Virus record (IMG/VR): IMGVR_UViG_3300023174_000033
Coordinates: 400,606-464,605 of that record
Origin: a virus
Direction: 5' to 3' (one strand)
Length of the DNA stretch: 64,000 nucleotides
Shown: positions 3,240 to 52,273 of the stretch, in pieces
How the letters are laid out: every line of letters begins with the position of its first letter
Position numbering within the stretch: position 1 is the stretch's first letter
Position numbers and translations under genes: made by a program
The notes under the pieces: generated by a model
Told to the model about the DNA's origin: nothing
Databases searched by the model: none
The model's input: only the letters and a program-made list of their open reading frames with translations

Positions 3240-3270
3240 CAAAGGTAAGGCGATTTTTTAGGATTCCAAA
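3240..3270 (-). promoter_or_regulatory. Bacteroidota-type promoter of the non-coding RNA
   Basis: Read leftward, TTTG (3270-3267) is followed after 19 bases by TACCTTTG (3247-3240). This is the Bacteroidota primary-sigma consensus. It lies within the 3' end of the neighbouring coding gene and points into the structured RNA. Confidence 0.75.
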
Positions 3271-3575
3271 ATATTTTTCAATTTTTTTTCTCTTAAATAA
3301 TAAATTAATTTTTCCTCAGCCCATAAGAATATCTTAAGTCTTGGAATTAAGTATTCATCACTCCATCTTGTATGTTTTATATAACCTCTCAACTCCTCAA
3401 TAGTTCTTTGAACCGAATCTAAATCATGGAAAAAATTTCCAGAAGAACCATAATACAAAAAAACTACCTTAGTATCATTTTCTAGTATCTTATGTCCATA
3501 AACCTCTGGTTCATATTCATCTATTATGAAATAATCATTCTTACAAAGGTCAGTAAATATTTTAAGCTGAGACAT
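3258..3575 (-). CDS. Hypothetical protein with C-terminal R-x-K-K-L-x-x-I-L tail
   Basis: A 105-residue soluble protein of unrecognised family that ends Y-L-R-E-K-K-L-K-N-I-L-E-S. This is one of the isolated members of the C-terminal tail set described in the findings; it is not in an ATGA-coupled operon. It is divergent from the gene at 3592, and the 16 bases between them contain an ATATATA run that could serve either direction. Confidence 0.75.
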   Translation of the reverse strand: MSQLKIFTDLCKNDYFIIDEYEPEVYGHKILENDTKVVFLYYGSSGNFFHDLDSVQRTIEELRGYIKHTRWSDEYLIPRLKIFLWAEEKLIYYLREKKLKNILES

Positions 3576-7984: not shown

Positions 7985-8470
7985 ATGCCAAACTGGGTTA
8001 AAAACAAATTATTTATTCACGGACCATCTGATAAGGTTAAAAAATGCACACTTGATATCGCAAGTGATAGTGAGCACATTTCCTTTGAGAAAATCCTACC
8101 AAGACCAAAGGATATTGGTGATGGTTGGTACGATTGGAGTGTAGAAAATTGGGGTACTAAATGGGACGCCGCAGATACCTATGAAGATGATGAAGGATAC
8201 ATCTGTTTTGATACTGCTTGGTCCACTCCACATGAATTAATGGGTACACTTTCAGAGAGATATTCAGATTTACTTTTTGAGGTTAAGTTTGCGGACGAAG
8301 ATTTAGGTAATAATTGTGGAATGTATCAATTTAAAGATGGTGATGAAATTGAATTTATGTCCTATGGAATCGAGGAGGCTTGTGATATTTGGGGATATGA
8401 TATTGAGGAAATTTTCCCCGATATCAAACGAGACAGGCAAATCGACAGAATTATAGGTGATGACGAATGA
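7985..8470 (+). CDS. YubB/Api92-like ferredoxin-fold protein with C-terminal tail
   Basis: The start M-P-N-W-V-K-N-K-L-F-I-H-G-P and the F-x-x-I-L-P-R-P, W-G-T-K-W-D-A and F-D-T-A-W-S-T-P blocks are the hallmarks of the Api92/YubB (DUF1281) family found on phages and plasmids. The C-terminus ends D-I-K-R-D-R-Q-I-D-R-I-I-G-D-D-E, matching the tail seen on many unrelated small proteins here. Such a tail is not something I know from this family elsewhere. It overlaps the next gene by 4 bases (ATGA). Confidence 0.8.
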   Translation: MPNWVKNKLFIHGPSDKVKKCTLDIASDSEHISFEKILPRPKDIGDGWYDWSVENWGTKWDAADTYEDDEGYICFDTAWSTPHELMGTLSERYSDLLFEVKFADEDLGNNCGMYQFKDGDEIEFMSYGIEEACDIWGYDIEEIFPDIKRDRQIDRIIGDDE

Positions 8471-23717: not shown

Positions 23718-23936
23718 ATGATTGGATTTGTTAGTTACCCAACACCAAATAAAACCTATAAACATTACAAGGGAGGTTTGTATAAAGTTCTTTTTTTATC
23801 CAAACATACCGAAACGGATGAAATATTAGTAAATTACCAATCAATTCTTTTTGGTTCTTATTATTCAAGACCACTAGAATCTTGGAATTCTACAACAGAA
23901 AGAGGTGAACCACGTTTTAAAGAAGTTATACAATGA
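23718..23936 (+). CDS. DUF1653 protein
   Basis: 72 residues with the family signature: K-H-Y-K-G-G-L-Y-K-V-L, H-T-E-T-D-E-I-L-V-N-Y and R-P-L-E-S-W, then P-R-F. DUF1653 proteins are single-domain, SH3-like, of unknown function and frequent in phages. The fold may be related to the small tail-bearing SH3-like proteins further on. ATGA overlap with the next gene. Confidence 0.85.
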   Translation: MIGFVSYPTPNKTYKHYKGGLYKVLFLSKHTETDEILVNYQSILFGSYYSRPLESWNSTTERGEPRFKEVIQ

Positions 23937-24367
23937 TTAAGGAAAAAGAATTTATCCTGAATAAAATAAAAATTGAAGGTGATGCAAAAGAATGGAACTA
24001 TACTTGTAAAAATGGTATAGAATTCAAATGTTATATTCGTAGAGTTCCAAGAAGCGGACACCTTTGTGGTTATGTGCACCTAACACCTGATAACGATTAC
24101 TTTGGTTATGAATATGATCATATACCAGTAGATTGCCATGGTGGATTGACCTATAGTTCTGACCATGATGGTGAGTGGGTTATTGGATTTGATTGTGCTC
24201 ACTTTGGTGATAATAAACCATTTTATTCCGATATGGAAATCTATGGGAATGATGGTACTTATAGAGATATGGAATATCTTACTAAAGAATGTGAATCTAT
24301 TTGTGAACAATTATCAACTAAAAGTAAATCACATTATAGAACAAAAAAATTAAATGAAATATTATGA
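23933..24367 (+). CDS. Hypothetical protein with C-terminal R-x-K-K-L-x-x-I-L tail
   Basis: A 144-residue protein whose core has a repeated aromatic/His pattern (H-L-C-G-Y-V-H-L, C-H-G-G-L-T-Y, G-F-D-C-A-H-F-G) common in phage hypotheticals. It ends S-H-Y-R-T-K-K-L-N-E-I-L and the stop is shared with the next ATG. Not otherwise recognised. Confidence 0.7.
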   Translation: MIKEKEFILNKIKIEGDAKEWNYTCKNGIEFKCYIRRVPRSGHLCGYVHLTPDNDYFGYEYDHIPVDCHGGLTYSSDHDGEWVIGFDCAHFGDNKPFYSDMEIYGNDGTYRDMEYLTKECESICEQLSTKSKSHYRTKKLNEIL

Positions 24368-26825: not shown

Positions 26826-27068
26826 TTGTTCAAGAGTTCAGACTATTTCAACGTCGTATGTATCGAAAATTGTAAATCTACCAAAGAATTCTGGCCAATA
26901 ACAATTGGTAAGCATTATCAAATCAAAAGTGGTTGGAAAACTTCAAATATTGCCTTCTATAACATAATAGCTGATGATGGAAAAGAATGGATAATACCAT
27001 CTACTTTTTTCAAATATGTAGATGAAGTAAGAGAGATAAAGATAGAGGAAATCCTTACTGTAAATTAA
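26826..27068 (+). CDS. Tail-bearing SH3-like protein, TTG start or 5'-damaged
   Basis: The product shows the array pattern (V-V-C-I-E-N, T-I-G-K-H-Y-Q-I, I-A-D-D-G, F-F-K-Y) and ends Y-V-D-E-V-R-E-I-K-I-E-E-I-L-T-V-N. No ATG is available; TTG at 26826 would add ten residues before the usual V-C-I start. It is the only array-like copy on the plus strand near the tRNAs, and it may be a transposed copy that lost its start. Confidence 0.6.
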   Translation: MFKSSDYFNVVCIENCKSTKEFWPITIGKHYQIKSGWKTSNIAFYNIIADDGKEWIIPSTFFKYVDEVREIKIEEILTVN

Positions 27069-27796
27069 CCAGCTTTCCTCCTGCCAAGTGAATCTATACT
27101 CCCATCATGCTTGAACTCACTAACCATTCCAGAAAGATAAATAGTTCCAAAATGGTAATCATCTTTCGGGTCAAATAAATAGTAATCATAACCCGTGAAT
27201 ATCTTATTATAGTCACTCATAAGTGTTCTCCACTCATTAGTTCTTCTTCCCACCGCCCATATATTCTTCGAATTTTTATAGTCATTGATGGGTACACTTA
27301 ACAAATCATAATTATTTCCCTGTTTATATGGACTTGACTGTAACCAATCCTCAAATCCATCCCAACCATCAACTAACCACCAGTCTTTGACAAAATAAAT
27401 ATCTTTGGTTCCTTTCAAAGTAAGGTGACTTGCATCTACTGGTAGTTCAGTTTGAATTAAAAAATAATCATCTTGGTATTTAGCTAGACTCATATCTTTC
27501 CTAAATCCATTTGGAATTTCAACTTTCCAATTTACTTGATTGATTTTTCCTGAAGTACCAGTTGCTGGATAGAGTGATCGACTAACAAGTTGTAGACCAG
27601 TTAGTTCTGGTTTTAAATATTTAGTAAATAACTTTTCAATTTGTAATAAATCACTTGAATTTAGTTCTTCTGTGCCCGGACTCTTTTCCATATCGAAGAA
27701 AAGGTCATTGAAAAGGTCTTGACCTAAATTTACATAGGTTGAACTTTTCAAATACTTTTCGTGTCTTGACTCATTGAATTTCCTTAAATATCTCAT
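27065..27796 (-). CDS. Leader-bearing protein, long form
   Basis: Starts M-R-Y-L-R-K-F-N-E-S, a leader variant, with TTAATATATACAC about 10 bases upstream. The 243-residue body has Y-Q-D-D-Y-F-L-I-Q and W-L-V-D-G-W-D-G-F-E-D-W-L, loosely matching the two blocks of the leader family, plus a C-terminal extension. It is the last gene before the convergent plus-strand copy. Confidence 0.7.
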   Translation of the reverse strand: MRYLRKFNESRHEKYLKSSTYVNLGQDLFNDLFFDMEKSPGTEELNSSDLLQIEKLFTKYLKPELTGLQLVSRSLYPATGTSGKINQVNWKVEIPNGFRKDMSLAKYQDDYFLIQTELPVDASHLTLKGTKDIYFVKDWWLVDGWDGFEDWLQSSPYKQGNNYDLLSVPINDYKNSKNIWAVGRRTNEWRTLMSDYNKIFTGYDYYLFDPKDDYHFGTIYLSGMVSEFKHDGSIDSLGRRKAG

Positions 27797-27814: not shown

Positions 27815-28036
27815 CTATCCGAGCAATATATTCAATTTATCATTTCTATGTTCATTTAAACGCTTGAACATTTTTATAGGATAGTGTCCCATTCTATCAT
27901 AGTCATTTACAACCCAACACAAATCAATATCATTAGTCAAAGTTAGATCGTATACTTTACCTATTACGAATGGACCTTCAATTATGGAATCCTCCCAATA
28001 GGTATTGTCTATACAGACTGCTTTTATTTTTTCCAT
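27815..28036 (-). CDS. Tail-bearing SH3-like small protein
   Basis: 73 residues: K-A-V-C-I-D-N, V-I-G-K-V-Y-D-L, V-V-N-D-Y-D, F-K-R-L, then tail N-E-H-R-N-D-K-L-N-I-L-L-G. A detached relative of the array at 29855-33720, at the far end of the same transcription unit. Confidence 0.75.
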   Translation of the reverse strand: MEKIKAVCIDNTYWEDSIIEGPFVIGKVYDLTLTNDIDLCWVVNDYDRMGHYPIKMFKRLNEHRNDKLNILLG

Positions 28037-28361: not shown

Positions 28362-29107
28362 TTTTGTTTTTTCCATTCTTCAAAGTGATCGATTTGTGGT
28401 TGTGATAATTCAGATCCTATATAACTCATTCCCCTTTCAATACAAGCTTTAGCAGTAGTTCCAATTCCCATAAAACTATCATATACAAGTGAGTTGGGTT
28501 TAGCATAAATATCCATTAACTTAGTAATAAGTTCAGTAGAAAAAGTAGCTTTGTTTAGGGGATTAGAACCATCATTATTTCTAGCTTCAATAAAGTTATA
28601 GATATTCTCATAGTTAGCTTGCCCAGTTCTTTCAATTCTACCAGTTATTTTCTTATTAGCATCAAAGGTTTTGAATTCATTTTTCCTAGAAAAGACAAAG
28701 ATATATTCAACTATTCTTGTAAGTTTATTCTTACTCACATTATTTGGAATAGCATTTGATTTTTTCCAAACGATACAATCTGCTGTAATAAAGTTAGTTC
28801 TTCTAATAATATCAGCGATAACTAACCAAATTAAATGTGTTTTCTCACTTGAATAAGACATATTGTAAAGAACACAACCATTTGGTTTTAATATTTTATC
28901 ATAACCATTAAAGACATCACAAGTCCAGTCAATATATTCTTGGTCTGTTTTGAAGTCTTGGAATATGTCATACCTACTGGAATATTTATCTGCTGCGCCA
29001 ACTCTGGATGTATTATATGGTGGTGATGTAATGACCATATCAACCTGTCCTTGAAGTTCAGGTCTATTCATTGTATCAAAGCAGGATTCGTTATAAATTA
29101 TATTCAT
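28358..29107 (-). CDS. DNA methyltransferase (T-S-P-P-Y type)
   Basis: 249 residues. The catalytic T-S-P-P-Y lies at residues 27-31 and the SAM-binding D-S-F-M-G-I-G-T-T-A near 206-215, so the order is catalytic motif before SAM motif (beta class, adenine-N6 or cytosine-N4). No partner restriction gene is adjacent, so it is likely an orphan enzyme that protects phage DNA or changes its regulation. Embedded in the operon downstream of the array, overlapping both neighbours. Confidence 0.88.
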   Translation of the reverse strand: MNIIYNESCFDTMNRPELQGQVDMVITSPPYNTSRVGAADKYSSRYDIFQDFKTDQEYIDWTCDVFNGYDKILKPNGCVLYNMSYSSEKTHLIWLVIADIIRRTNFITADCIVWKKSNAIPNNVSKNKLTRIVEYIFVFSRKNEFKTFDANKKITGRIERTGQANYENIYNFIEARNNDGSNPLNKATFSTELITKLMDIYAKPNSLVYDSFMGIGTTAKACIERGMSYIGSELSQPQIDHFEEWKKQK

Positions 29108-29493
29108 TTTAGTAGTTGTTCTATTCTTTGGTTTCTTTTTTCTTGTGGTTTTAAAACTGGATTATACTTGAAGTATCTATCAAACTTTAGTAACCAATAT
29201 AGTGAATAAGGGTCAAAGTAAGTGATTAAGTTTCTATTCAAATAAACATTTTTTTGTAGCTCATAATGTCCATTTCTCCATCTATAAAACTTTCCTGTTA
29301 TGTATAGGTTTTCATCTTCAGTTATTGTATTTCCATCAACACTTTCCCAAAGGTAAAACTTTTTATTAGGAAGGTCGTCATATACCTTTTTATAGTATTT
29401 CCATTTATTAAAGTTAGTCATAATAGAAGCAAACACAAATGGAATGAAACTAGCAATGACTACAACAAAAATATTAAAATGTAATGTAATCAT
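29104..29493 (-). CDS. Membrane protein with C-terminal tail
   Basis: One N-terminal transmembrane segment (residues 5-26), then a soluble domain with W-E-S-V-D-G-N and F-Y-R-W-R-N-G-H-Y-E-L, ending E-K-R-N-Q-R-I-E-Q-L-L-K. The tail thus occurs on a membrane protein as well. Related in one block (D-P-Y-S-L-Y-W-L-L) to the product at 13358, which lacks the tail. Confidence 0.7.
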   Translation of the reverse strand: MITLHFNIFVVVIASFIPFVFASIMTNFNKWKYYKKVYDDLPNKKFYLWESVDGNTITEDENLYITGKFYRWRNGHYELQKNVYLNRNLITYFDPYSLYWLLKFDRYFKYNPVLKPQEKRNQRIEQLLK

Positions 29494-29835: not shown

Positions 29836-29867
29836 CAAAGATAAGGGATTAAGTTTAATTCTCCAAA
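29836..29867 (-). promoter_or_regulatory. Host-type promoter between the array and downstream operon
   Basis: Leftward: TTTG (29867-29864), 20 bases, TATCTTTG (29843-29836), then 18 bases to the ATG at 29817. Confidence 0.75.
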
Positions 29868-30070
29868 ATCTTTTGTAAAAAGTATTCTCTAATGATTGAC
29901 TTATCCCAAAAATATTTAGCTGGTATATCTACTCGTCTCCCAAGATTATCAATGGTTAAATAAAGAACACCATGTTCCATTTTTACTTCAACCAATTCAT
30001 ATTCATCACCTAACTTTATATTAGCGTGATTTGCTGGTGAATAGTGTTCCTTAATACATTTGATTATCAT
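29855..30070 (-). CDS. Tail-array member 17 (last)
   Basis: 71 residues: I-I-K-C-I-K-E-H, I-K-L-G-D-E-Y-E-L, I-D-N-L-G-R-R, Y-F-W-D-K. The tail is degenerate (I-I-R-E-Y-F-L-Q-K-I-L-E-N) but keeps R and I-L. ATGA overlap with member 16. Confidence 0.75.
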   Translation of the reverse strand: MIIKCIKEHYSPANHANIKLGDEYELVEVKMEHGVLYLTIDNLGRRVDIPAKYFWDKSIIREYFLQKILEN

Positions 30071-30390
30071 AGGTTTAATATCTCATCTATATCATCATCC
30101 CGTTTTTGTTCTTTGGATGGTAGTGCCACATCTACTAAATATACTTTGAAGTTAAGGATTTCTTCTTGGATACTACCATCTTTCATATCATAAAACTCTT
30201 TATAAACAAACTTACCTTGGTAATCATTTGGATATTTACTATTATCTGGCACAAAATCAACAAACTCACCCCTTTGTCTTGGTACACCGCAATAATCATC
30301 AAGATATTCTCTGATGTATTTGAGGGTTGGACCAACACAGATTGGTGTACCATCTTGTAATACCACATGGGAAAATTTTACTACTTTCAT
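30067..30390 (-). CDS. Tail-array member 16, different core
   Basis: 107 residues. The core is not the usual SH3-like one: V-V-L-Q-D-G-T-P-I-C-V-G-P and D-D-Y-C-G-V-P-R-Q-R-G-E-F, with a longer body. It still ends E-Q-K-R-D-D-D-I-D-E-I-L-N-L. It has its own TATCTTTG promoter four bases upstream of the ATG. Confidence 0.75.
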   Translation of the reverse strand: MKVVKFSHVVLQDGTPICVGPTLKYIREYLDDYCGVPRQRGEFVDFVPDNSKYPNDYQGKFVYKEFYDMKDGSIQEEILNFKVYLVDVALPSKEQKRDDDIDEILNL

Positions 30391-30391
30391 T

Positions 30392-30667
30392 TTACAAAGA
30401 TAATATATTTTCTATTTTTTCCTCTCTAATTTCTTCAATTGTTTTGAACTCTGAAATAGGGTAGTAGTATTTGGTTGTTCCCTTATCAGATTTTTCAATC
30501 AAATAATATCTTTTATCATCGTTTATTTTGGATGAAATATGACTACCAAACCAAACATAAGGATTTGTGTAAGGAGCCAAGGTATCTTCTCTTGGTAAGG
30601 CATTATACACTTTACCATCAGTTAATTCATCCCACTCAACATCAGTTTTGATTTTAATAACTTTCAT
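30392..30667 (-). CDS. Tail-array member 15
   Basis: 91 residues, longer than average: V-I-K-I-K-T-D, T-D-G-K-V-Y-N-A-L, a middle insertion with W-F-G-S-H-I-S-S, then Y-Y-Y-P-I-S-E-F and tail I-E-E-I-R-E-E-K-I-E-N-I-L-S-L. Confidence 0.78.
   Translation of the reverse strand: MKVIKIKTDVEWDELTDGKVYNALPREDTLAPYTNPYVWFGSHISSKINDDKRYYLIEKSDKGTTKYYYPISEFKTIEEIREEKIENILSL
30395..30402 (-). promoter_or_regulatory. Internal TATCTTTG promoter element of the array
   Basis: TATCTTTG (30402-30395), TAAA, then ATG at 30390. It is built from the last codons of member 15. No clear TTTG lies at the right distance. Confidence 0.55.
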
Positions 30668-30903
30668 TCTAATATTTTTTCTATTTGTTTTTCTCTGAAT
30701 TCTATTATATCAATAAAGTATTCGTCAAATGTTATTTTACCAATAGAAAATCTATGTCTGCCAGTATTCACATCATATAGTTCAACTTTTACAGGTGGTC
30801 CAAATCCTTCATTACCATCATAGTTTAGGAAATAAGTAAAAGTATCTCCCTTTTCTACTGGTGTTTCTTTCATTGGTGATTTAATGCAAATACATTTATT
30901 CAT
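30664..30903 (-). CDS. Tail-array member 14
   Basis: 79 residues: K-C-I-C-I-K-S, V-E-K-G-D-T-F-T-Y, V-E-L-Y-D-V-N-T-G, and tail I-I-E-F-R-E-K-Q-I-E-K-I-L-E. Closest in pattern to member 11 (V-R-K-G-D-K-F, H-L-Y-D-V-K-D-G), so these two are a recent pair within the array. Confidence 0.8.
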   Translation of the reverse strand: MNKCICIKSPMKETPVEKGDTFTYFLNYDGNEGFGPPVKVELYDVNTGRHRFSIGKITFDEYFIDIIEFREKQIEKILE

Positions 30904-31130
30904 TTTAATATTTCATCTAATTGTTGTTGTCTCCATTTAGTTACTTCTACCATCTTAAACCTATCAGTATTAAGCATCCATTCACTAAATTGTTTTACTT
31001 TTAATTTATCATTTTTGGAAAAATAATTACCACTAACAAAAAGAACATTATATATTTTACCAGGTGTGAAATAGTGACACCTTGAATATTCATATGGGTC
31101 GTTTTTAATACAGATATATTTTAGGTTCAT
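30900..31130 (-). CDS. Tail-array member 13
   Basis: 76 residues: K-Y-I-C-I-K-N-D, F-T-P-G-K-I-Y-N-V-L-F, and tail E-V-T-K-W-R-Q-Q-Q-L-D-E-I-L-K. The I-D-D-G segment of other members is absent. Confidence 0.78.
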   Translation of the reverse strand: MNLKYICIKNDPYEYSRCHYFTPGKIYNVLFVSGNYFSKNDKLKVKQFSEWMLNTDRFKMVEVTKWRQQQLDEILK

Positions 31131-31372
31131 TTTAATAGTTCATCTATTTGTTTTTCTCTGTATTCTTCTATAAAATCAAAATCTTCTATTGGCCAATAGG
31201 AAAACTGGTCTCTATCATCTTCAACAATATAAGACATAATAACTTTATCTTTACCCGCTAAATAAATGTATTGACCTGAACCATATAAAGGTAGTGCTTC
31301 ATATATTTTTCCATAAGTCAATCTTTCCCAGAAAGGTTCATTACCTGGTTTTCTTTTATACCTCAACTTCAT
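31127..31372 (-). CDS. Tail-array member 12
   Basis: 81 residues: L-T-Y-G-K-I-Y-E-A-L-P, I-V-E-D-D-R-D, W-P-I-E-D-F-D, and tail I-E-E-Y-R-E-K-Q-I-D-E-L-L-K. The N-terminal V-C-I is replaced by a basic stretch. Confidence 0.78.
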   Translation of the reverse strand: MKLRYKRKPGNEPFWERLTYGKIYEALPLYGSGQYIYLAGKDKVIMSYIVEDDRDQFSYWPIEDFDFIEEYREKQIDELLK

Positions 31373-31620
31373 TTTAATAGTTCATCTATTTGTTTTTGTC
31401 TAAAATCTTGTATATCCTCAAAATGACTTTTGAAATGTTTTTCTATTAGACCAAAGTCATACATACCATCTTTAACATCATAAAGATGAAAAGTTATTTG
31501 GCGATTTCCAAGTGTATCACCAATTTTATCTACTTCATACCAGAACTTATCACCCTTTCTAACAGGTGTTCTTTTTCCTAAAAATTTCCTATCTTTTATA
31601 CACACACAATAATTTCTCAT
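31369..31620 (-). CDS. Tail-array member 11
   Basis: 83 residues: Y-C-V-C-I-K-D, V-R-K-G-D-K-F-W-Y, F-H-L-Y-D-V-K-D-G, and tail I-Q-D-F-R-Q-K-Q-I-D-E-L-L-K, nearly identical to the tail of member 12 although the cores differ. Tails are therefore better conserved than cores here. Confidence 0.78.
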   Translation of the reverse strand: MRNYCVCIKDRKFLGKRTPVRKGDKFWYEVDKIGDTLGNRQITFHLYDVKDGMYDFGLIEKHFKSHFEDIQDFRQKQIDELLK

Positions 31621-31973
31621 TCTAAAATCTTTTTTATTTTTATTTCTCTAATTGTTTCTTTACTGGCATACCTTTCTATAATAGATTTTTTTGGGTTGAA
31701 AGTCATAGGAGTAACTTGAAAACAAGATGGTTCAGATAGTAATTGGTCTATGGTTTCTTGTCTATATTCGTCAAGTGGTTTGAAATGTTCCAAAAAAATA
31801 TCTGATGGAAGTCCAAGTATATAACGCAACCCACTCACATGGTGGTCTGATTTTTGATAAAGGTTCCATTGTAGTTCTTTTTTCATAGGTGGTAAAACCA
31901 AAAAAACATCACCTATTTTTGGTTTATGTTGAGTATAATACTGCCTATTTTTTATACAAATGTATTGTGTCAT
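31617..31973 (-). CDS. Tail-array member 10 with two tails
   Basis: 118 residues. Residues 1-78 form a complete array protein ending L-D-E-Y-R-Q-E-T-I-D-Q-L-L-S. A ~40-residue extension follows and ends in a second tail, K-E-T-I-R-E-I-K-I-K-K-I-L-E. This looks like fusion of a full member with the 3' remnant of another, or internal duplication of the tail. Only this member has both. Confidence 0.78.
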   Translation of the reverse strand: MTQYICIKNRQYYTQHKPKIGDVFLVLPPMKKELQWNLYQKSDHHVSGLRYILGLPSDIFLEHFKPLDEYRQETIDQLLSEPSCFQVTPMTFNPKKSIIERYASKETIREIKIKKILE

Positions 31974-32200
31974 TCTAAAAACTTTTCTATTTGTTCTTGT
32001 CTAAATTCATCAATCAATTTGAAATAATATTCTGGTACTACAATTGGGTGTCCTGTATCCGCAGTGACACCATATTGACTATCAAAATGAAAACTCCCAT
32101 AATGTTTAACTTCATAAACCTTTCCAATAGTTAGTATTGCATTTCTACCATTTTTTTGTGGAGTATCCCAGTTTTTATTTCTTATACAAATTGCTTTCAT
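31970..32200 (-). CDS. Tail-array member 9
   Basis: 76 residues: K-A-I-C-I-R-N, L-T-I-G-K-V-Y-E-V, V-T-A-D-T-G-H-P-I-V-V-P, Y-Y-F-K-L, and tail I-D-E-F-R-Q-E-Q-I-E-K-F-L-E. A typical full-length member. Confidence 0.8.
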   Translation of the reverse strand: MKAICIRNKNWDTPQKNGRNAILTIGKVYEVKHYGSFHFDSQYGVTADTGHPIVVPEYYFKLIDEFRQEQIEKFLE

Positions 32201-32400
32201 TTAAGTAACTCTTCTAATCTTATATTTCTCAATTCTGTAAGTGGTGTGAACATTTTTTCAATATAATGTTCTTTGGCTCCACCATCATCAACAATATAAA
32301 TCCATACTACACTATTCCTATGGACTTCATAAATCTTACCTGGTGTGATATTAAATTGGATACCATTGGGTGTGATATTGGTTTTACAAACTACTTTCAT
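32197..32400 (-). CDS. Tail-array member 8
   Basis: 67 residues, one of the shortest: V-V-C-K-T-N, I-T-P-G-K-I-Y-E-V, I-V-D-D-G-G, and tail L-T-E-L-R-N-I-R-L-E-E-L-L-K. It keeps all four blocks with minimal loops, so it shows the core fold best. Confidence 0.8.
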   Translation of the reverse strand: MKVVCKTNITPNGIQFNITPGKIYEVHRNSVVWIYIVDDGGAKEHYIEKMFTPLTELRNIRLEELLK

Positions 32401-32612
32401 TTTCCTAAAATATCATCAATGTTTTTATCCCTTTTATCAGCCTCATAGTTTTCCATAAAGTATTTTATCTGCTCTACTATATTCTTATCATTTTTTTCAT
32501 TATTTTTAATCCTATCTTGTAGAGCAAAAAGTAAGGAATGTATTTGCTCCTTGAAATCTTCTTTTACAAAGAGTTTTTCCAACTTTTCTCTGAATTCTGG
32601 GTCCAAGTTCAT
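32397..32612 (-). CDS. Tail-array member 7, helical core
   Basis: 71 residues, entirely helical and charged (F-R-E-K-L-E-K-L-F, I-H-S-L-L-F-A-L-Q-D-R-I), with no SH3-like blocks. It ends A-D-K-R-D-K-N-I-D-D-I-L-G-K. An unrelated fold carrying the same tail within the same operon. Confidence 0.78.
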   Translation of the reverse strand: MNLDPEFREKLEKLFVKEDFKEQIHSLLFALQDRIKNNEKNDKNIVEQIKYFMENYEADKRDKNIDDILGK

Positions 32613-32839
32613 TTTAGTAGTTCTTCTAGTTTTTCTAATCTAACTTCATCAAGGGGTTTAAACCTACCTCTTCTTAAAGCAACCTCAATCCCATCATTAC
32701 CTATTATATAATATACACCATTATCATTAAATGTTGAATTCAGCCTATCTGTAACTTGGTAGATTTTACCAGAAGTCACAAAATCCATACCCAATGCCTC
32801 ATTAGTAACACCAGTATCATCTATACACACAACTTTCAT
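32609..32839 (-). CDS. Tail-array member 6
   Basis: 76 residues: V-V-C-I-D-D-T-G, V-T-S-G-K-I-Y-Q-V, I-I-G-N-D-G-I-E-V, R-F-K-P, and tail L-D-E-V-R-L-E-K-L-E-E-L-L-K. It shares L-R-R/M-x-R-F-K-P-L-D-E-V-R-L-E-K-L with member 2, pointing to a recent duplication. Confidence 0.8.
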   Translation of the reverse strand: MKVVCIDDTGVTNEALGMDFVTSGKIYQVTDRLNSTFNDNGVYYIIGNDGIEVALRRGRFKPLDEVRLEKLEELLK

Positions 32840-33045
32840 TTTATTAATTGATTTATCTTATCTTGTCTTATTGATTGGAGTGGTTTAAACATATATTCTG
32901 TATATTCACTATATTTGATTTTATATCCTTTATCATCTATGATATATTTAGCAAAGAAATAGTCATGAGGTGCTGTTATTACTTCATAGATTTTACCTTC
33001 AGTAAAATTAAATATTTTGGTATTTATATTACAAACTATTTTCAT
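32836..33045 (-). CDS. Tail-array member 5
   Basis: 69 residues: I-V-C-N-I-N, F-T-E-G-K-I-Y-E-V, Y-I-I-D-D-K-G, M-F-K-P, and tail L-Q-S-I-R-Q-D-K-I-N-Q-L-I-K. Confidence 0.8.
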   Translation of the reverse strand: MKIVCNINTKIFNFTEGKIYEVITAPHDYFFAKYIIDDKGYKIKYSEYTEYMFKPLQSIRQDKINQLIK

Positions 33046-33269
33046 TTTAATAATTCGTCTAACTTTTCTTGTCTATATTGTTCTAACTCAATAAATCTCC
33101 TTTTTGATAAAATCACTATTTTTCCACTATCATCATACAACTTATATGATTGTTCAGAACCATCATCAATTAACTCATATACTCTACCCAAAGTTAAAAA
33201 GATTTCTATTTTATCTGGGTTTTTACCCATCTTAGGAAAGGGATAATCATCTATACATACTACTTTCAT
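33042..33269 (-). CDS. Tail-array member 4
   Basis: I start it at the ATG at 33269, which overlaps the upstream stop as ATGA; a longer frame from 33302 is less likely. 75 residues: V-V-C-I-D-D-Y, L-T-L-G-R-V-Y-E-L-I, Y-D-D-S-G-K-I, and tail L-E-Q-Y-R-Q-E-K-L-D-E-L-L-K. Confidence 0.8.
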   Translation of the reverse strand: MKVVCIDDYPFPKMGKNPDKIEIFLTLGRVYELIDDGSEQSYKLYDDSGKIVILSKRRFIELEQYRQEKLDELLK

Positions 33270-33481
33270 AACAAAGTTTTTTCTAATTGCATTTCTCTCC
33301 ATTCATCCAAAGATACAAATGATTTTGGACTTGTATAAATTGTTTCTCCAATATCATTTGTTATTTTCATAGCCAGTTTATCCTTGTTGGATTTCCAAAT
33401 AGGGTTCCAAGAGTCAAGTGCTTCATATTGTTTCCCATATGTAAGATTGGGACAATTTTCTTTGATAAAAATAACTTTCAT
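33266..33481 (-). CDS. Tail-array member 3
   Basis: 71 residues: V-I-F-I-K-E-N, L-T-Y-G-K-Q-Y-E-A, I-T-N-D-I-G-E-T-I, and tail L-D-E-W-R-E-M-Q-L-E-K-T-L-L. The tail has Thr where most have Ile or Leu. Confidence 0.8.
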   Translation of the reverse strand: MKVIFIKENCPNLTYGKQYEALDSWNPIWKSNKDKLAMKITNDIGETIYTSPKSFVSLDEWREMQLEKTLL

Positions 33482-33720
33482 TTTAATAATTCGTCTAACT
33501 TTTCTAATCTAACTTCATCAAGTGGTTTGAACCTGTCCATCCTTAGTGATACTTCTTTACCATTATCACTGATAATATTTACCATATGAATACCTGATGG
33601 TTTATGTATACCACCTTTATTTGGATGGGAAATCATTTCATATACTTTTCCCTCTGTAATATGTTCATGTGGGGAAACCCCACCTTCTCTGATTTTATTG
33701 TTTATACAAACTAGTTTCAT
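33478..33720 (-). CDS. Tail-array member 2
   Basis: 80 residues: L-V-C-I-N-N-K, I-T-E-G-K-V-Y-E-M-I, I-I-S-D-N-G-K-E-V, R-F-K-P, and tail L-D-E-V-R-L-E-K-L-D-E-L-L-K. A glycine- and histidine-rich loop lies between the first two blocks. Confidence 0.8.
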   Translation of the reverse strand: MKLVCINNKIREGGVSPHEHITEGKVYEMISHPNKGGIHKPSGIHMVNIISDNGKEVSLRMDRFKPLDEVRLEKLDELLK

Positions 33721-34043
33721 AGGATTTCTTCTATTTTTTTATTCCTAACTTCTTGGATGTTTTCACTATCAACCCATTTATTAAAATCTTCAACTGCGTT
33801 TTCTGAAGCATGTTGGTGGTAATACTCTTGATGTTTCACAAGTGATGGGTCAAGAGTTCCACCTTTCCCATCTGAATATGGAATAGGAACTGGACTTACT
33901 TTATCTTGGATAAGACCAGGATAATGTTTTGTATATCCACAAGGTTTGCAAATAAAACGAATGCATCTATCATAAGAATCGTCTTTGATTTTTCCACCAC
34001 ATTTTGGGCAAGGTTTTAAGTATTGTTCGCTATAACTTCCCAT
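33717..34043 (-). CDS. Tail-array member 1: zinc-ribbon protein with tail
   Basis: 108 residues. C-P-K-C-G-G near residue 13 and C-K-P-C-G near 32 form a C4 zinc ribbon of the Lar/restriction-alleviation-like type seen in many phages. It ends E-N-I-Q-E-V-R-N-K-K-I-E-E-I-L. First gene of the 17-gene array; the promoter lies four bases before its ATG. Confidence 0.82.
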   Translation of the reverse strand: MGSYSEQYLKPCPKCGGKIKDDSYDRCIRFICKPCGYTKHYPGLIQDKVSPVPIPYSDGKGGTLDPSLVKHQEYYHQHASENAVEDFNKWVDSENIQEVRNKKIEEIL

Positions 34044-34066: not shown

Positions 34067-34438
34067 ATGAAATACCTAAAAATATTTGAAAGTTTTAATC
34101 AAGGGAAATATTATTGGCCAATAACTGCAACTGAGTTCAATAAGTATGTAGAAACATTTGAATTTACAGAACAAGAAATTGAAGCAATAAAAAGTATCTG
34201 TGATAAAAGATTTACTGAAATGGATTTTGAATTTTATACAAGCTGGGATATACCACCAACTGGTTCAATAAATTTGGAGACAAATACAGGTGGTCAAAAC
34301 TTATATACTATAAGAACAAGAATAGACAAAGAAAATGACGAATATTTCGCAGTCGCATATAATATTGATAGGACACCAGAATATTACAAAGCAGACCAAT
34401 TGGAGGGTCTAATAAAACTTTTGGAAGATATCTTATGA
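34067..34438 (+). CDS. Leader family tandem 2, gene A
   Basis: Starts M-K-Y-L-K-I-F-E-S-F; AATAATATATAAT lies 5 bases before the ATG. It has N-D-E-Y-F-A-V-A-Y and E-Y-Y-K-A-D-Q-L-E-G-L-I-K-L-L, counterparts of the blocks in the 11110-13293 tandem. 123 residues. It is divergent from the tail array, with 23 bases between starts. Confidence 0.8.
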   Translation: MKYLKIFESFNQGKYYWPITATEFNKYVETFEFTEQEIEAIKSICDKRFTEMDFEFYTSWDIPPTGSINLETNTGGQNLYTIRTRIDKENDEYFAVAYNIDRTPEYYKADQLEGLIKLLEDIL

Positions 34439-34881
34439 AATACCTAAAAATATTTGAAGAGTTTTCTGATTTCTATAAAAAAATACGAAATGACGATATC
34501 AATCCTAAAAAAATCATTGATATTGATTTAGGTATACAGAATATGATAGAATCAAGATTAAAGCACAAATCTACTTTTTCATATTCCATATACCAACCAT
34601 ACATGGGTAGTATGTTGAGAGGAAATCAAAGGAAATTAAAGATTGAAACAGATATAATCGTTACACATGGTTCTCCAGATAAAATGGTAAAACCCTTAAT
34701 CAAAAAACACAATACTATGATTGTTGAGATGGAAGATGAGTGGTTTATAGTTTCTAACCAGACAAGATTTGATGGTGGTGGTTCTTGGGCTACTCCAAAG
34801 TCATTGGATATTGAATTATATGAATGTGACCAAGAAGAAGGACTTTTGGAGTTATTAAAGAAATTAGATATAATAAAATGA
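34435..34881 (+). CDS. Leader family tandem 2, gene B
   Basis: Starts M-K-Y-L-K-I-F-E-E-F-S-D. It has E-D-E-W-F-I-V-S and E-L-Y-E-C-D-Q-E-E-G-L-L-E-L-L near the end. ATGA-coupled on both sides. The first ~24 bases of coding sequence are identical in genes A, B and C. Confidence 0.8.
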   Translation: MKYLKIFEEFSDFYKKIRNDDINPKKIIDIDLGIQNMIESRLKHKSTFSYSIYQPYMGSMLRGNQRKLKIETDIIVTHGSPDKMVKPLIKKHNTMIVEMEDEWFIVSNQTRFDGGGSWATPKSLDIELYECDQEEGLLELLKKLDIIK

Positions 34882-35312
34882 AATACCTAAAAATATTTGA
34901 AGGTAGTGAAAGTTTTTTTGGAACCTCCAACTATGGTGATTTTGAAATAAATAAACCCGCCCATAAAGTCATATTCAATATGTTCATATGTGATTATGAA
35001 TCACCAAATTGGAAAGAAAATGTTGAAATCCTAAAAGGTATAAACTTCCCAACAAGTATAGAAAAATCAAAAGGTTATCATAAAGGTTTATCTATTCAAG
35101 TTTTACTTGATATGGACATCCAATCAGCAAAAGAGTTCTCTGATGAAATCGTCAATATGTTTTTAGATAAACCACTTATCGTTATTGCTGAGGTAGATGT
35201 AATAATGAAAAAACAACCAATAGGTTATTACTTTGATAAAGACCTATGGGAACCTGGTAGATATTTTGATAAACTAATTGAAAGTGGTGAAAAAGGAGTA
35301 TTTATACATTAA
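34878..35312 (+). CDS. Leader family tandem 2, gene C with different body
   Basis: Starts M-K-Y-L-K-I-F-E-G-S-E-S-F-F-G, but the body lacks the D-E-W-F and E-C-D blocks. Instead it has W-K-E-N-V-E-I-L-K-G and S-I-Q-V-L-L-D-M-D. So the leader has been joined to another domain. The 3' end overlaps the convergent remnant by 11 bases. Confidence 0.75.
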   Translation: MKYLKIFEGSESFFGTSNYGDFEINKPAHKVIFNMFICDYESPNWKENVEILKGINFPTSIEKSKGYHKGLSIQVLLDMDIQSAKEFSDEIVNMFLDKPLIVIAEVDVIMKKQPIGYYFDKDLWEPGRYFDKLIESGEKGVFIH

Positions 35313-35754
35313 TTCTATCAATAATTTTTGGTCTTAGAAATGTTTTGATGCTTTTTTCATTTTGTTCTAATATATTTGGTATTGCTGCCATTGAATTATG
35401 ATGTAATCCACGAGCAGGATTTGGATTTATCATTTCAAATGGTCCAATATATCTTTCAAAGTTTTCTAACATTTTAGAAAATATTAAACGATGATCTGAT
35501 GCAAGATACATAATCTGTGGGTAAACATCCCCAAAATGACCCCATTTTACAGTATACATCCTTATATGATTTTTATCCATTGAATTTGGTTCAAAGTGCC
35601 TTCTTGGTCTGAATCCAATAAATCTATTCCATTTTTCTTTGATATAGTTTGGGTCATTAACAAAGACAAGGTTGTCAGTCCACTTTTACATGAGGAAAGT
35701 TATTAAATATAAATTGACTATTCTATTATAGTCAGGATCATTTTTATAAATCAT
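35302..35754 (-). pseudogene. Gene interrupted by an in-frame TAA
   Basis: From the ATG at 35754 the frame reads M-I-Y-K-N-D-P-D-Y-N-R-I-V-N-L-Y-L, meets TAA at 35688-35686, then stays open for 127 codons (K-W-T-D-N-L-V-F-V-N-D-P and on to the stop at 35302). The two halves read as one protein of ~150 residues. The distal part contains W-G-H-F-G-D-V-Y-P-Q-I-M-Y and could be re-initiated at 35580. Family not recognised. Either a nonsense mutation, a recoded stop or a sequence error. Confidence 0.6.
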
Positions 35755-35917
35755 CTTCTTTTAGTATTTCATCAATTTTAATTTCTCTATTAACCCACTT
35801 TGGTCTTTTCATATAATCTGGCAAATGTTCCCAATTTTTCTGATGATGTTTAATCATCCACTCATGATATTCCTGGGCGACTTTATCTGGTTTTGTTCCA
35901 ATTTGTTTTTCATTCAT
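35744..35917 (-). CDS. 57-residue tail-bearing protein
   Basis: Starts in an ATGA overlap at 35917. A helical body (V-A-Q-E-Y-H-E-W-M-I-K-H-H) typical of small phage proteins with W-x-x-x-P motifs, ending W-V-N-R-E-I-K-I-D-E-I-L-K-E-D-D-L. Four residues follow the tail, so the tail need not be exactly terminal. It belongs to the second tail-gene cluster. Confidence 0.75.
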   Translation of the reverse strand: MNEKQIGTKPDKVAQEYHEWMIKHHQKNWEHLPDYMKRPKWVNREIKIDEILKEDDL

Positions 35918-36114
35918 GATATAATTCTGTCTATTTTTTGATTTCTAAATTCTTCCAATGTAACAAAAAATCTTTTATCCCAGTTAAAAATATCTACCAT
36001 TTTATCACTTTCTCTCTGAACCATATAAAACCCTTTGAAGTCACTTAAAACATTATAAACATTTCCATATTGTAAATAAATGTGATTATCAACTATACAA
36101 ACTACTTGTTTCAT
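35914..36114 (-). CDS. Tail-bearing SH3-like protein, cluster 2
   Basis: 66 residues: V-V-C-I-V-D-N, L-Q-Y-G-N-V-Y-N-V-L, R-F-F-V-T, and tail L-E-E-F-R-N-Q-K-I-D-R-I-I-S. ATGA overlaps on both sides. Confidence 0.78.
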   Translation of the reverse strand: MKQVVCIVDNHIYLQYGNVYNVLSDFKGFYMVQRESDKMVDIFNWDKRFFVTLEEFRNQKIDRIIS

Positions 36115-36368
36115 TTTAATATTTGCTCTATTTGTTCGTCTCTATATTCTTCTATTGGTTTGAAAAAGTCAAAATGTATATGGATATTTTTCCCATGATC
36201 ATCAATTACTCTACACTTCTTAGGAAGTATCTTTGGTGCAAATTCATAGAGTTCATAGATTTCGTAAACTTTACCAATAGTCAAGTCGTGTTTTCTAAAC
36301 TTCTTCTCACCATTGAAAGATGTGGCTGGATGAATTGTTTGGGTATTTTCTATACAGATAGCTTTCAT
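36111..36368 (-). CDS. Tail-bearing SH3-like protein, cluster 2
   Basis: 85 residues: K-A-I-C-I-E-N, L-T-I-G-K-V-Y-E-I, V-I-D-D-H-G-K, F-F-K-P, and tail I-E-E-Y-R-D-E-Q-I-E-Q-I-L-K. Its blocks match member 9 of the main array best. Confidence 0.8.
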   Translation of the reverse strand: MKAICIENTQTIHPATSFNGEKKFRKHDLTIGKVYEIYELYEFAPKILPKKCRVIDDHGKNIHIHFDFFKPIEEYRDEQIEQILK

Positions 36369-36371: not shown

Positions 36372-36710
36372 TCAAATAGATAATTCTTTTAACTTTTCTT
36401 CTCTAATAGTTCTAGTTCTGAAAGACTCATAACTTTCTTCTTTATTTATGGTAAGTTTTGGTGAATAAATCGCATCCCAATCATCATCAAAGTAATCATC
36501 TAACATCTTAAATAAATCTTTTGCTTTTATTCTTTTCAATGAAAAGGTCCACTCTCTATTATTGGTATGAAAAATCTCACCATCATTTCTTGTAACGACA
36601 ATTCTAAGTCCTGCGTAATTAAAAACCACCCTAAAGTTAGGTGCGATTAATTTACCTGTTTTAACAAAACCCAAGTATTCGAGTATTTCAGTTAATTGGT
36701 CTATTGTCAT
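36372..36710 (-). CDS. Tail-bearing protein with a different core
   Basis: 112 residues: T-I-D-Q-L-T-E-I-L-E-Y-L-G-F, G-L-R-I-V-V-T-R-N-D-G and D-L-F-K-M-L-D-D-Y-F-D-D-D-W. This is a mixed alpha/beta domain unlike the SH3-like members. It ends R-T-I-R-E-E-K-L-K-E-L-S-I. Confidence 0.72.
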   Translation of the reverse strand: MTIDQLTEILEYLGFVKTGKLIAPNFRVVFNYAGLRIVVTRNDGEIFHTNNREWTFSLKRIKAKDLFKMLDDYFDDDWDAIYSPKLTINKEESYESFRTRTIREEKLKELSI

Positions 36711-36907
36711 TTTACTATTTCTTCTATTTTATCATTTCTATTATCTTCAATGGATTCGAATATTTCTTTTGGATACCAACCACCTTGATTTAGATCATCT
36801 TTGTAAACCCAATGTCCATCATCTCTACTGGTAGAAGGCACCAATCTATAGTATTTTCCTTCAGTCAAATATCTTATACTTTTGATACATTTGAGTTTTA
36901 TATCCAT
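36707..36907 (-). CDS. Tail-bearing SH3-like protein, first of cluster 2
   Basis: Start at 36907 is set by the promoter four bases upstream; a longer frame from 37033 would pass through it. 66 residues: K-L-K-C-I-K-S, L-T-E-G-K-Y-Y-R-L-V, and tail I-E-D-N-R-N-D-K-I-E-E-I-V-K. Confidence 0.78.
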   Translation of the reverse strand: MDIKLKCIKSIRYLTEGKYYRLVPSTSRDDGHWVYKDDLNQGGWYPKEIFESIEDNRNDKIEEIVK

Positions 36908-36911
36908 GTTA

Positions 36912-36919
36912 CAAATATA
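36912..36919 (-). promoter_or_regulatory. Promoter element of tail cluster 2
   Basis: TATATTTG (36919-36912), TAAC, ATG at 36907. Same four-base spacing as at the head of the main array. Confidence 0.6.
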
Positions 36920-36977
36920 GAAAATAATATTTAAAAAGTAAAAAATTATATATACAAATATAAATATTAATTGGCAA

Positions 36978-37877
36978 ATGAAGAAATTAAAGACTTTCGA
37001 ACAATTCAAAGAAAAAAATGTCCAAGAAGGCATAAAGGATTATTTATTAGGTGGTTTAGCCACAATAGGTAGTATGGTTACTACACCAGAAACCTCTTAT
37101 GGACAACAAAAAACCCCAAAAGAAGTTACTTCGCAACAAGTCAGTGATAAAAAGGACATACTGGGTAGACCATTAACAGCAGCACCCCCCACAAAAACTG
37201 AGAATCTTGGAAAGCGTAAGTATTTAGTAACCACTAAACAAATAAACCCAAGTCCACAAAAGGATGCTGAATTAAAAGCTAAGGGGTATAAACCAGTTTG
37301 GACTGAGACTGTAAAGTCTACACCAAAATGGGGAGTTGAGAGTTCTGAAAGAAAAAAGCCAGTTGTAATGAAATCGGATAATGATAAGTTCTTTGAACTC
37401 GGTGGATATACTTTAACACAACAAGTAAAAGATACAATACAAGCAAGGATTAATAAATTGGGTGGTGTTGATAGTGTGAAAGTTGAAGCTTCTACTGATA
37501 AAACTCCATTGACTAAGAAACTAAAAGCTGATTTAGAATCAAAAGGTTATTCGGGTGATAACACTGGACTTTCAAAAGCTAGGTCAAATGCTATTAAAAA
37601 CTTTTTGATTAGTATTGGTGTAAATCCATCAAATATCGTTGAAGTTAATTTGGCCGACCAAGGTAAAGAGGGTGGTTATGACCCAAGTGCTAGATATGTA
37701 AAACTTACTCTAATTGAAAAAGGTAGTGGTACTGGTAGTGGTGAAGAATATTTCCAAGAAAAGGAAGAAATAGTTGTTTACTATCAAAGAGTAAATGATA
37801 TGATGCAGAAAATGGTCAAACAAAGATATGGTACACCTATCGATTGTGAAGGTGGTAACTGTGCCACTTATGATTGA
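36978..37877 (+). CDS. Leader-bearing protein with OmpA-like C-terminal domain
   Basis: Starts M-K-K-L-K-T-F-E-Q-F-K-E-K. After a short hydrophobic stretch and a P/T/K-rich linker (residues ~40-130), residues ~140-255 resemble an OmpA-like peptidoglycan-associated domain: L-T-x-Q-V-K-D-T-I and L-S-K-A-R-S-N-A-I-K-N-F-L-I-S-I-G-V-N-P. The end is C-E-G-G-N-C. A leader joined to a possible cell-wall-binding domain would suit a packaged protein used at entry or assembly. A terminator follows. Confidence 0.7.
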   Translation: MKKLKTFEQFKEKNVQEGIKDYLLGGLATIGSMVTTPETSYGQQKTPKEVTSQQVSDKKDILGRPLTAAPPTKTENLGKRKYLVTTKQINPSPQKDAELKAKGYKPVWTETVKSTPKWGVESSERKKPVVMKSDNDKFFELGGYTLTQQVKDTIQARINKLGGVDSVKVEASTDKTPLTKKLKADLESKGYSGDNTGLSKARSNAIKNFLISIGVNPSNIVEVNLADQGKEGGYDPSARYVKLTLIEKGSGTGSGEEYFQEKEEIVVYYQRVNDMMQKMVKQRYGTPIDCEGGNCATYD

Positions 37878-38950: not shown

Positions 38951-39184
38951 TTATTCCAAAATCTTGTGGATTTTATATTGTCGGATTTCTTCTAAATTTC
39001 TTTCCATGAAAGTTTCATAAACTATTTTTTTCGCTTCTGAATTATCTGGTAACACATTTGCACAGCAAGTAAAGTCAGGACAACACTCATCATCTATTTG
39101 ATTATGTTTTGATACTCCACCCATCCAATCAAGAAGTTGCTCGTAACTTCTTATACTGTATCCTGTTTTTTTATTTCTATACAT
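38951..39184 (-). CDS. Tail-bearing protein with D-E-C-C-P-D-F motif
   Basis: 77 residues. D-D-E-C-C-P-D-F-T-C-C places four cysteines in a compact motif that recurs, to my knowledge, in small phage proteins of unknown function. It ends L-E-E-I-R-Q-Y-K-I-H-K-I-L-E. It overlaps the upstream gene by 8 bases. Confidence 0.75.
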   Translation of the reverse strand: MYRNKKTGYSIRSYEQLLDWMGGVSKHNQIDDECCPDFTCCANVLPDNSEAKKIVYETFMERNLEEIRQYKIHKILE

Positions 39185-39437
39185 TGTCTATTATACCCTC
39201 AATAATTTTATTTCTCTTATTTTGAAACTCTATTTGTTTATATTCTTCTTCAAAAAATATTCTATTAGCTAACTCAACAATTTGGTCATGAGCTTGGTCT
39301 GGACTTATCATACCACCCCATCTTTTTCTTTTTATCTGTTCACTATCAATTGATGTTAATATAGATATAGCTGCTAGTAGTAACTTACCCTCGTCTATAT
39401 TAGTGTCAATTTGTCTAAATTCTTCTACCTTTATCAT
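39177..39437 (-). CDS. Hypothetical protein with divergent tail
   Basis: 86 residues: L-L-L-A-A-I-S-I-L-T-S and P-D-Q-A-H-D-Q-I-V-E-L-A-N-R-I-F-F-E-E-E-Y, a helical pattern seen in small phage proteins. The end, Q-N-K-R-N-K-I-I-E-G-I-I-D-N-V, can be read as a tail variant. A terminator lies upstream and no clear promoter is visible. Confidence 0.65.
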   Translation of the reverse strand: MIKVEEFRQIDTNIDEGKLLLAAISILTSIDSEQIKRKRWGGMISPDQAHDQIVELANRIFFEEEYKQIEFQNKRNKIIEGIIDNV

Positions 39438-41353: not shown

Positions 41354-41737
41354 TTATTTATTAAATAAATCGTTTAATTTTCTATCTCTTATTTCTTGTT
41401 TGAAAAATTGAAATTGATAATCCATATATTGACAATTAAAATTGTAATCAGTTGGGACTGTTTCATAAGGTTGGTGACGAGTTCCGAATTTACCACTTAA
41501 TTCAAAATGTATCCCACCTGCAACATAAATATTGACTTTCATTATGTATCTTTCCGAACCTCTGAAAGTTATTGTATGTGCTCCTAATTCTGGTACTAAT
41601 ATCACACAGGTGTCTAAATTCCAAATTTGTGGTAATTCTTTTTTAACTTTGAACCCAATAGACACAAGGAAATCTCTAGCTTCTTTTACTTTTTCGAAAC
41701 CTTCGTAGTTTTCCTCTATGTAAATGTTTTCATCCAT
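41354..41737 (-). CDS. Tail-bearing protein
   Basis: 127 residues. The core resembles the product at 36372: V-K-E-A-R-D-F-L-V-S-I-G-F, an I-T-F-R-G-S-E-R-Y beta stretch and W-N-L. It ends Q-E-I-R-D-R-K-L-N-D-L-F-N-K. The start lies directly after a terminator, so a weak promoter or read-through must express it. Confidence 0.7.
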   Translation of the reverse strand: MDENIYIEENYEGFEKVKEARDFLVSIGFKVKKELPQIWNLDTCVILVPELGAHTITFRGSERYIMKVNIYVAGGIHFELSGKFGTRHQPYETVPTDYNFNCQYMDYQFQFFKQEIRDRKLNDLFNK

Positions 41738-52021: not shown

Positions 52022-52273
52022 ATGGAGGAGTATTACTTAAGATTTGATAAATATTTTTGGGCCAGACGTGGTAGGAAAACTCTGTACCCATCTAGTACGA
52101 AAGTTTTAATAGAAATAGAAAAAATGTCAAGTGTTGATGGTGGAGAAGTTAAATACTATTACGCTTATATAAAAGATGGAGCTCCACTTGGTCAATTTGA
52201 TGAAGAGGAATTCAAGGAAACTTTTATGGATATAAATGAAATGAGGGATAGGAAAATTGACGATATAATTTAA
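52022..52273 (+). CDS. Isolated tail-bearing protein
   Basis: 83 residues. A beta-rich core with a Y-Y-A-Y-I-K-D-G-A-P-L stretch, not the SH3-like pattern. It ends I-N-E-M-R-D-R-K-I-D-D-I-I. It has its own promoter and no overlapping neighbour on the same strand, which shows that the tail occurs outside ATGA-coupled operons. Confidence 0.75.
   Translation: MEEYYLRFDKYFWARRGRKTLYPSSTKVLIEIEKMSSVDGGEVKYYYAYIKDGAPLGQFDEEEFKETFMDINEMRDRKIDDII

Follow-up and report, generated by a model that had tools for sequence, protein, structure and literature searches.

Why should a long run of small viral proteins with differing cores end in nearly the same short peptide? This question is raised by the window, the 64,000 nucleotides analysed here, which form the final 64 kb (positions 400,606 to 464,605; G+C 32%) of the 464,605-bp virus record IMGVR_UViG_3300023174_000033 in IMG/VR, here coded G000. 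A preliminary description of this DNA had reported about 32 small proteins with a common C-terminal motif, referred to below as the tail, 17 of them encoded by consecutive genes at 29855–34043. We hold with moderate confidence that the tail acts as a movable docking helix, in effect an address label, recognised by one putative receptor that is most likely phage encoded.

The tail is real and far in excess of chance. Genes were predicted with a simple home-made codon-usage caller, and the last residues of each protein were scored in bits with a position-specific matrix, using internal blocks from the same proteins as background. All 32 genes previously named match, at 12.5–27 bits, as do 17 of 17 genes in the consecutive run; the lowest scores belong to the genes starting at 39177 (12.5 bits) and at 29855 and 36707 (14.1 bits each). 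About 20 further G000 genes beyond the window carry the tail. The motif is not equally frequent in the background: 50 of 491 G000 gene ends reach at least 12 bits where 0.16 are expected. Similarly, 52 of the 491 end in E-h-R-[DEQN]-x-[KQ]-[IL]-[DEN]-x-[IL]-[LI] (0.9 expected), and a plain regular expression finds 37 gene ends (0.35 expected). The tail stops 0–7 residues before the C terminus.

The preliminary description had proposed a profile search of the last residues in the full genome and in related phages, and this search revealed a large C-terminal excess in G000 and in three relatives. The major capsid protein of G000 shares 66–68% identity with those of the uncultured phages W02 and W01 (634–642 kb), 50% with that of W03 (uncultured; 636 kb), 47% with that of W04 (735 kb), 34% with that of W05 (462 kb) and 29% with those of Lak phages. 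In a published survey, all five genomes >634 kb were assigned to the Mahaphage clade, and Bacteroidetes hosts were predicted (PMC7162821); the 634–642 kb relatives belong to this group. Because the matrix was refined on data from the same genome, a fairer check takes the G000 matrix unchanged to other phages, and this found tails on 39 of 229 genes in W01 (0.9 expected; W01 was covered in part), 32 of 166 in W02 (0.3) and 32 of 172 in W03 (0.4); scores were about at background in nine other sampled phages, including a cyanophage and Tenacibaculum, Chryseobacterium and Flavobacterium phages. Counted genome by genome, 88 of 510 W01 genes (1.7 expected), 163 of 899 W02 genes (1.9), 135 of 848 W03 genes (1.9) and 29 of 951 W04 genes (0.7) are tailed, which corresponds to 16–18% of genes in the 634–642 kb relatives and 10–18% across several huge phages. 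W05–W12 were examined as 100-kb samples each and then by a whole-record scan with the 17-position profile of a single dialect (defined below), which yielded 34, 100, 102 and 9 matches in G000, W01, W02 and W03, respectively, and 0–2 matches in each of W04–W12. W04 was missed by this profile because its dialect is different, and a first W04 sample showed no tails because they are confined to a few clusters.

Nearly all tails inside one genome conform to a single sequence variant, or dialect. In G000 it is R-[DEQN]-x-[KQ]-[IL]-[DEN]-x-[IL]-L, as a rule with a single residue after it; in W01 and W02, R-[DNE]-x-K-[IL]-[NDK]-x-[IL]-[LGI]; in W03, R-K-x-[KRI]-I-[ED]-x-L-[LI], often at the very C terminus; and in W04, K-R-T-[KE]-L-[IM]-D-[KR]-M-L. 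The arginine and the hydrophobic residues at +4 and +8 are common to all. Overall, the peptide comprises ~11–14 residues with a near-invariant arginine, hydrophobic residues at +4, +7 and +8, and a helix-capping residue (S, D, N, E or Q) enriched at −3 from the arginine, for example asparagine in 72% of W04 tails. The protein encoded at 33478–33720 is predicted to form an SH3-like barrel followed by a C-terminal helix (residues 67–79, pLDDT ~92). In a structure search, this model hit nothing in the PDB beyond generic SH3 barrels (best E value 0.05); there was one viral match (E value 9e-4). Positions 0, 4, 7 and 8 would lie on one helix face, such that the arginine and the hydrophobic residues would contact a partner together. 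The presence of one dialect per genome points either to a single drifting reader or to recent mutual copying of tails.

The preliminary description had also stated that the parent domains are unrelated, and this holds in part. Clustering the cores of 211 tailed proteins by BLAST gave 174 clusters (43 for a set of 54 tailed proteins), counts that overstate independence, as at least 14 window genes are diverged members of one SH3-like family in which the tail arginine is the sole invariant alignment column. Nevertheless, the tailed cores include DUF1281_C/YubB, DUF6011, DUF7336, YopX, BtpA, riboflavin kinase, MazG-like, phrog_2164, capsid-fragment and helicase proteins. Comparison of homologues shows that the tail is gained and lost as a separate unit. 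The DUF6011 protein stops at the domain end in G000, and its W01, W02 and G018 homologues add 15–20 residues that close with the tail. Likewise, the phrog_2164 domain spans residues 5–134 of a 144-residue window protein, with the tail outside it, and the 129-residue homologue from a staphylococcal phage has none. The protein encoded at 31617–31973 has two copies of the tail: one follows its SH3-like core, the other a 40-residue extension, as though the address needed keeping at the new end.

The motif proved not to be purely C terminal, as had been supposed, since copies also reside in internal loops. There are 18 internal copies in W01 and 22 in W02, compared with 1.6 and 2.6 with permuted matrices. 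In the UvsW-type helicase the motif is a loop insertion in W01, W02 and G010 and is present in degenerate form in G000; relatives that do not use the dialect lack the insertion, and W03, W04, a cyanophage and a Tenacibaculum phage are without it. An XPD/DinG-like helicase contains the motif in a loop at residue 244, and one W01 protein has an exact 14-residue insertion relative to W02. The helicase model is middling (pLDDT 73, pTM 0.47) and is given little weight. Among the sampled contig fragments, five records with an intact helicase loop have 2.0–13.8 tail matches per 100 kb, versus 0–1.5 in five records in which the loop is missing or degenerate (p ~0.01), a suggestive sign that loop loss tracks the lowest tail density. 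At the loci L375 and L386, the UvsW-type helicase is interrupted: there are reading frames of 499 and 103 aa and ~540 extra bases, which may be an intein or intron.

The tail appears to be a phage feature. A strict DNA pattern for one dialect matched 37 stretches in 2.9 million viral contigs; most are true gene ends, and the contigs are mostly AT-rich and bear further tails. Bacterial genomes totalling 257 Gb gave 25 matches to the same pattern, and a single one of these (L348) clearly lies at the end of a plausible tailed frame. The suggestion that the partner might be a host protein is thus without support, the dialect being essentially absent from these genomes, and mimicry of a host peptide was rejected on the same counts. 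We also sought the receptor by phylogenetic profiling, which gave eight G000 genes found in W01–W03 and not in W04; the contrast is uninformative, as W04 has its own dialect. Our search of the open literature found no description of a shared C-terminal motif in huge phages.

Collectively, these data favour a docking peptide. All copies within one phage would be read by a single putative receptor, most likely phage encoded, which would gather accessory proteins, together with certain DNA helicases, at one site that the phage builds inside the infected cell, be it a replication site, an assembly site or the forming virion. Drift of such a receptor would drag all tails of a genome along and so produce dialects. 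We prefer recruitment or localisation to degradation, since a folded helix within an enzyme loop makes a poor degron, degrons being usually unstructured and terminal. The docking, localisation or degradation function first proposed is the best reading and is strengthened by the dialects and loop copies; its restriction to C termini is too narrow, and a host partner lacks support. Encapsulin cargo peptides and the peroxisomal PTS1 are C-terminal docking peptides on unrelated cargo read by one receptor; the phage tail differs in having another sequence, in being viral and in its genome-specific dialects. Portable targeting peptides are already known as a kind. To our knowledge, none of them has genome-specific dialects and loop copies and is borne by between a tenth and a sixth of the genes of a phage.

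Several points weigh against a docking peptide. No receptor for the tail was found, and C-terminal placement also suits a degron. The helicase-loop correlation rests on fragments of related phages that are not phylogenetically independent. In W04, the same codon is used for the same residue between tails at a frequency of 0.74, clearly above the 0.50 expected, and some recent tail copying has probably occurred there. Shared ancestry of the tails within a genome could also yield dialects, and some copying probably did take place.

A broader form of the proposal is possible but doubtful: a genome-wide protein-sorting code in which up to >100 proteins per genome share one helical address and a single phage-encoded receptor that would define a phage-made site or compartment, with the dialect drifting in each phage. 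Such drift is what phage-specific sorting would require. In nucleus-forming phages, searches found no conserved signal sequence and a folded recognition surface was favoured (PMC11087766). Sorting in huge phages is selective for the phage's own proteins, an end that dialects would also serve; in contrast to chimallivirus nuclear import, for which no linear signal was found (PMC11087766), the tail is a plain linear motif. The function of most huge-phage proteins is obscure, and a shared docking peptide would place up to a fifth of a gene set in one pathway. It is also a bait that could pull out its receptor. Should that receptor mark the virion or a compartment, sense could be made of the accessory proteome; should it be the phage Clp protease, the tail would reveal programmed self-destruction of phage proteins. 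The dialects are a natural experiment in receptor–peptide co-evolution.

Among the alternatives, packaging into the virion is a special case of docking, and an unlikely one. Here, the tail would be a C-terminal counterpart of the T4-type capsid-targeting sequences, loading proteins into the prohead for injection. T4 internal head proteins bear an N-terminal propeptide of 10–20 residues that targets them to the capsid and is cut off by the prohead protease, and they are few (Mullaney and Black 1996, as described in PMC5694885). The tail resembles this sequence as a short portable peptide on unrelated phage proteins, and T4-type capsid genes are present here too; unlike it, the tail lies at C termini or in loops rather than at the N terminus and is found on 10–18% of genes. 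Truncated major-capsid paralogues are tailed in W01 (L330:14417-15202), W02 (L247:7176-7907) and W03 (L287:2629-3165). They cover different parts of the capsid protein and bear the tail in the manner of cargo, without resembling a receptor. The helicases and the MazG-like and riboflavin-kinase proteins hardly suggest themselves as cargo. An N-terminal tag, M-K-[YH]-[LI]-K-x-F-E-x-F, was also observed on ~50 G000 genes and in relatives. Tag and tail almost never share a protein (5 have both, most of them weakly, versus ~16 expected), a pattern that packaging would accommodate, and by its position this tag, M-K-[YH]-L-K-x-F-E-x-F, would be the better capsid-targeting candidate.

Degradation is a serious rival that we rate as rather improbable. 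The tail would be a C-terminal degron read by a phage ClpC-like unfoldase with phage or host ClpP, for scheduled removal of small, perhaps early, proteins. Tags of the ssrA type and other C-terminal degrons are read by Clp proteases, and the tail is likewise C terminal and borne by unrelated proteins. What keeps this explanation in contention is the ClpC-like unfoldase found in the long tailed records, in most cases alongside ClpP. A ClpC-like AAA+ protein is encoded in G000, W01–W04, G025 and G029, with no homologue found in W05 or W07–W12, and ClpP is present in most tailed records (in G000 at G000:C1:357258-357788); a drifting unfoldase would also produce dialects. However, copies lie in internal loops and near the N termini of conserved enzymes, and the tail, a predicted N-capped folded helix, has up to 7 trailing residues rather than a strictly terminal, accessible peptide, unlike the usual degron. 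Moreover, W04 has tails and no ClpP match, whereas Lak-B5 and W05 encode ClpP (Lak-B5 also a ClpX-like AAA+ protein) and no tails were found in either, W05 having been scanned as a whole record with one dialect's profile. Finally, because the tailed phages are relatives of one another, their distribution would be matched by any gene specific to the clade. The ClpC-like unfoldase of G000 is in two pieces 49 kb apart (L015:909-2081, minus strand; L017:9694-11184, plus strand), and at the start of the C-terminal piece an intein-like domain interrupts the Walker A site of AAA ring two, an arrangement suggesting a split intein. Matches to the N-terminal part of the Clp query in G006, G009, G027, W04 and W05 look like intein and were rejected as a Clp feature.

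Self-association would dispense with a separate receptor, the tails binding one another as helical bundles to give mixed oligomers or a condensate, but we consider it quite improbable. The helix is amphipathic with a hydrophobic face conserved in every dialect, and dialects could be self-complementary. Against this, bundle-forming helices are not usually so short, nor do they usually have one near-invariant arginine, and the single helicase loop insertions would need to pair with terminal tails.

Very little speaks for an element acting at the DNA or RNA level, whether a translation-coupling or start signal, a recombination linker or a mobile in-frame insertion element. It is true that 54% of tailed G000 genes overlap the next start, that the W01 insertion is exact and that W04 codon sharing exceeds expectation. 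However, in four genomes the same codon is used for the same residue at 0.55–0.62 versus 0.46–0.56 expected (for G000, 0.54 versus 0.47 was also obtained); with so small an excess in synonymous codon sharing, it is the peptide on which selection acts. A mobile in-frame element such as the Rickettsia palindromic elements was rejected because the copies in these genomes lack DNA-level likeness, W04 being the exception. A Shine–Dalgarno or translation-coupling signal was likewise rejected: there are no conserved upstream nucleotides, no Shine–Dalgarno-like purine run occurs inside the tails, the conserved arginine lies ~30 bases before the stop, and 11 of 50 tailed G000 genes have no same-strand gene start within 60 bases, their neighbour being distant or on the opposite strand. 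The earlier view that the tail is selected in the protein and not merely as a translation-start signal is thus upheld by the codon variation, by neighbour-free tailed genes and by homologues that gain or lose the tail.

Common descent alone, with every tail the final helix of a single duplicated family, would fit the SH3-like paralogues, but as a sole explanation it is contradicted by the variety of tailed domains and by tails that, where tested, lie outside the domain and are missing in homologues; we regard it as highly implausible. Equally implausible is a membrane-binding amphipathic helix, which the amphipathic, terminal nature of the tail would allow but which sits poorly with 11-mer mean net charges that differ by dialect (−0.1 in G000, +1.4 in W03), a modest hydrophobic moment (0.28–0.39) and a sequence far more specific than lipid binding requires.

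Table 1. Tails and N-terminal tag sites in the window, with positions counted from its first nucleotide
Feature	Gene	Position	Strand	Score (bits)	Remark
17 consecutive small genes		29855..34043	-		mostly 4-bp overlaps, tail on each
YLREKKLKNIL	3258-3575	3267..3299	-	18.8	no overlapping downstream gene
IKRDRQIDRII	7985-8470	8423..8455	+	18.7	YubB/Api92-like, Pfam DUF1281_C
HYRTKKLNEIL	23933-24367	24332..24364	+	21.1	beyond phrog_2164 domain
EVREIKIEEIL	26826-27068	27024..27056	+	24.2	SH3-like, TTG start
EHRNDKLNILL	27815-28036	27821..27853	-	21.0	
EKRNQRIEQLL	29104-29493	29110..29142	-	21.6	membrane protein by eye
IIREYFLQKIL	29855-30070	29864..29896	-	14.1	weak
QKRDDDIDEIL	30067-30390	30076..30108	-	20.7	
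EIREEKIENIL	30392-30667	30401..30433	-	24.7	
EFREKQIEKIL	30664-30903	30670..30702	-	24.1	
KWRQQQLDEIL	30900-31130	30906..30938	-	24.8	
EYREKQIDELL	31127-31372	31133..31165	-	25.8	
DFRQKQIDELL	31369-31620	31375..31407	-	23.0	
TIREIKIKKIL	31617-31973	31623..31655	-	19.9	second (terminal) tail
EYRQETIDQLL	31617-31973	31737..31769	-	20.7	first (internal) tail, adjoining SH3-like core
EFRQEQIEKFL	31970-32200	31976..32008	-	22.9	
ELRNIRLEELL	32197-32400	32203..32235	-	21.5	
DKRDKNIDDIL	32397-32612	32406..32438	-	17.6	helical protein by eye
EVRLEKLEELL	32609-32839	32615..32647	-	23.8	
SIRQDKINQLI	32836-33045	32842..32874	-	21.7	
QYRQEKLDELL	33042-33302	33048..33080	-	25.7	
EWREMQLEKTL	33266-33481	33272..33304	-	21.1	
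EVRLEKLDELL	33478-33720	33484..33516	-	23.9	predicted barrel and C-terminal helix
EVRNKKIEEIL	33717-34043	33720..33752	-	24.3	zinc-ribbon-like by cysteines
VNREIKIDEIL	35744-35917	35762..35794	-	21.4	
EFRNQKIDRII	35914-36114	35920..35952	-	21.8	
EYRDEQIEQIL	36111-36368	36117..36149	-	27.0	
TIREEKLKELS	36372-36710	36378..36410	-	18.0	
DNRNDKIEEIV	36707-37033	36713..36745	-	14.1	
EIRQYKIHKIL	38951-39184	38957..38989	-	22.9	
NKRNKIIEGII	39177-39437	39189..39221	-	12.5	weak
EIRDRKLNDLF	41354-41737	41363..41395	-	21.9	
EMRDRKIDDII	52022-52273	52238..52270	+	23.1	neighbour on opposite strand
N-terminal tag sites		9587-13293, 24562-24972, 27065-27796, 34067-35312, 36978-37877			

Two further observations concern other genes. 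Two tandem, similar tail-sheath-like genes, each encoding ~1400 residues, are found at L022:9815-14029 and L022:14183-18325. Within the window, the two larger proteins encoded at 39491-41116 and 41776-43089 have signal-peptide-like starts and ends that, by eye, resemble type IX secretion sorting domains, in keeping with a Bacteroidota host.

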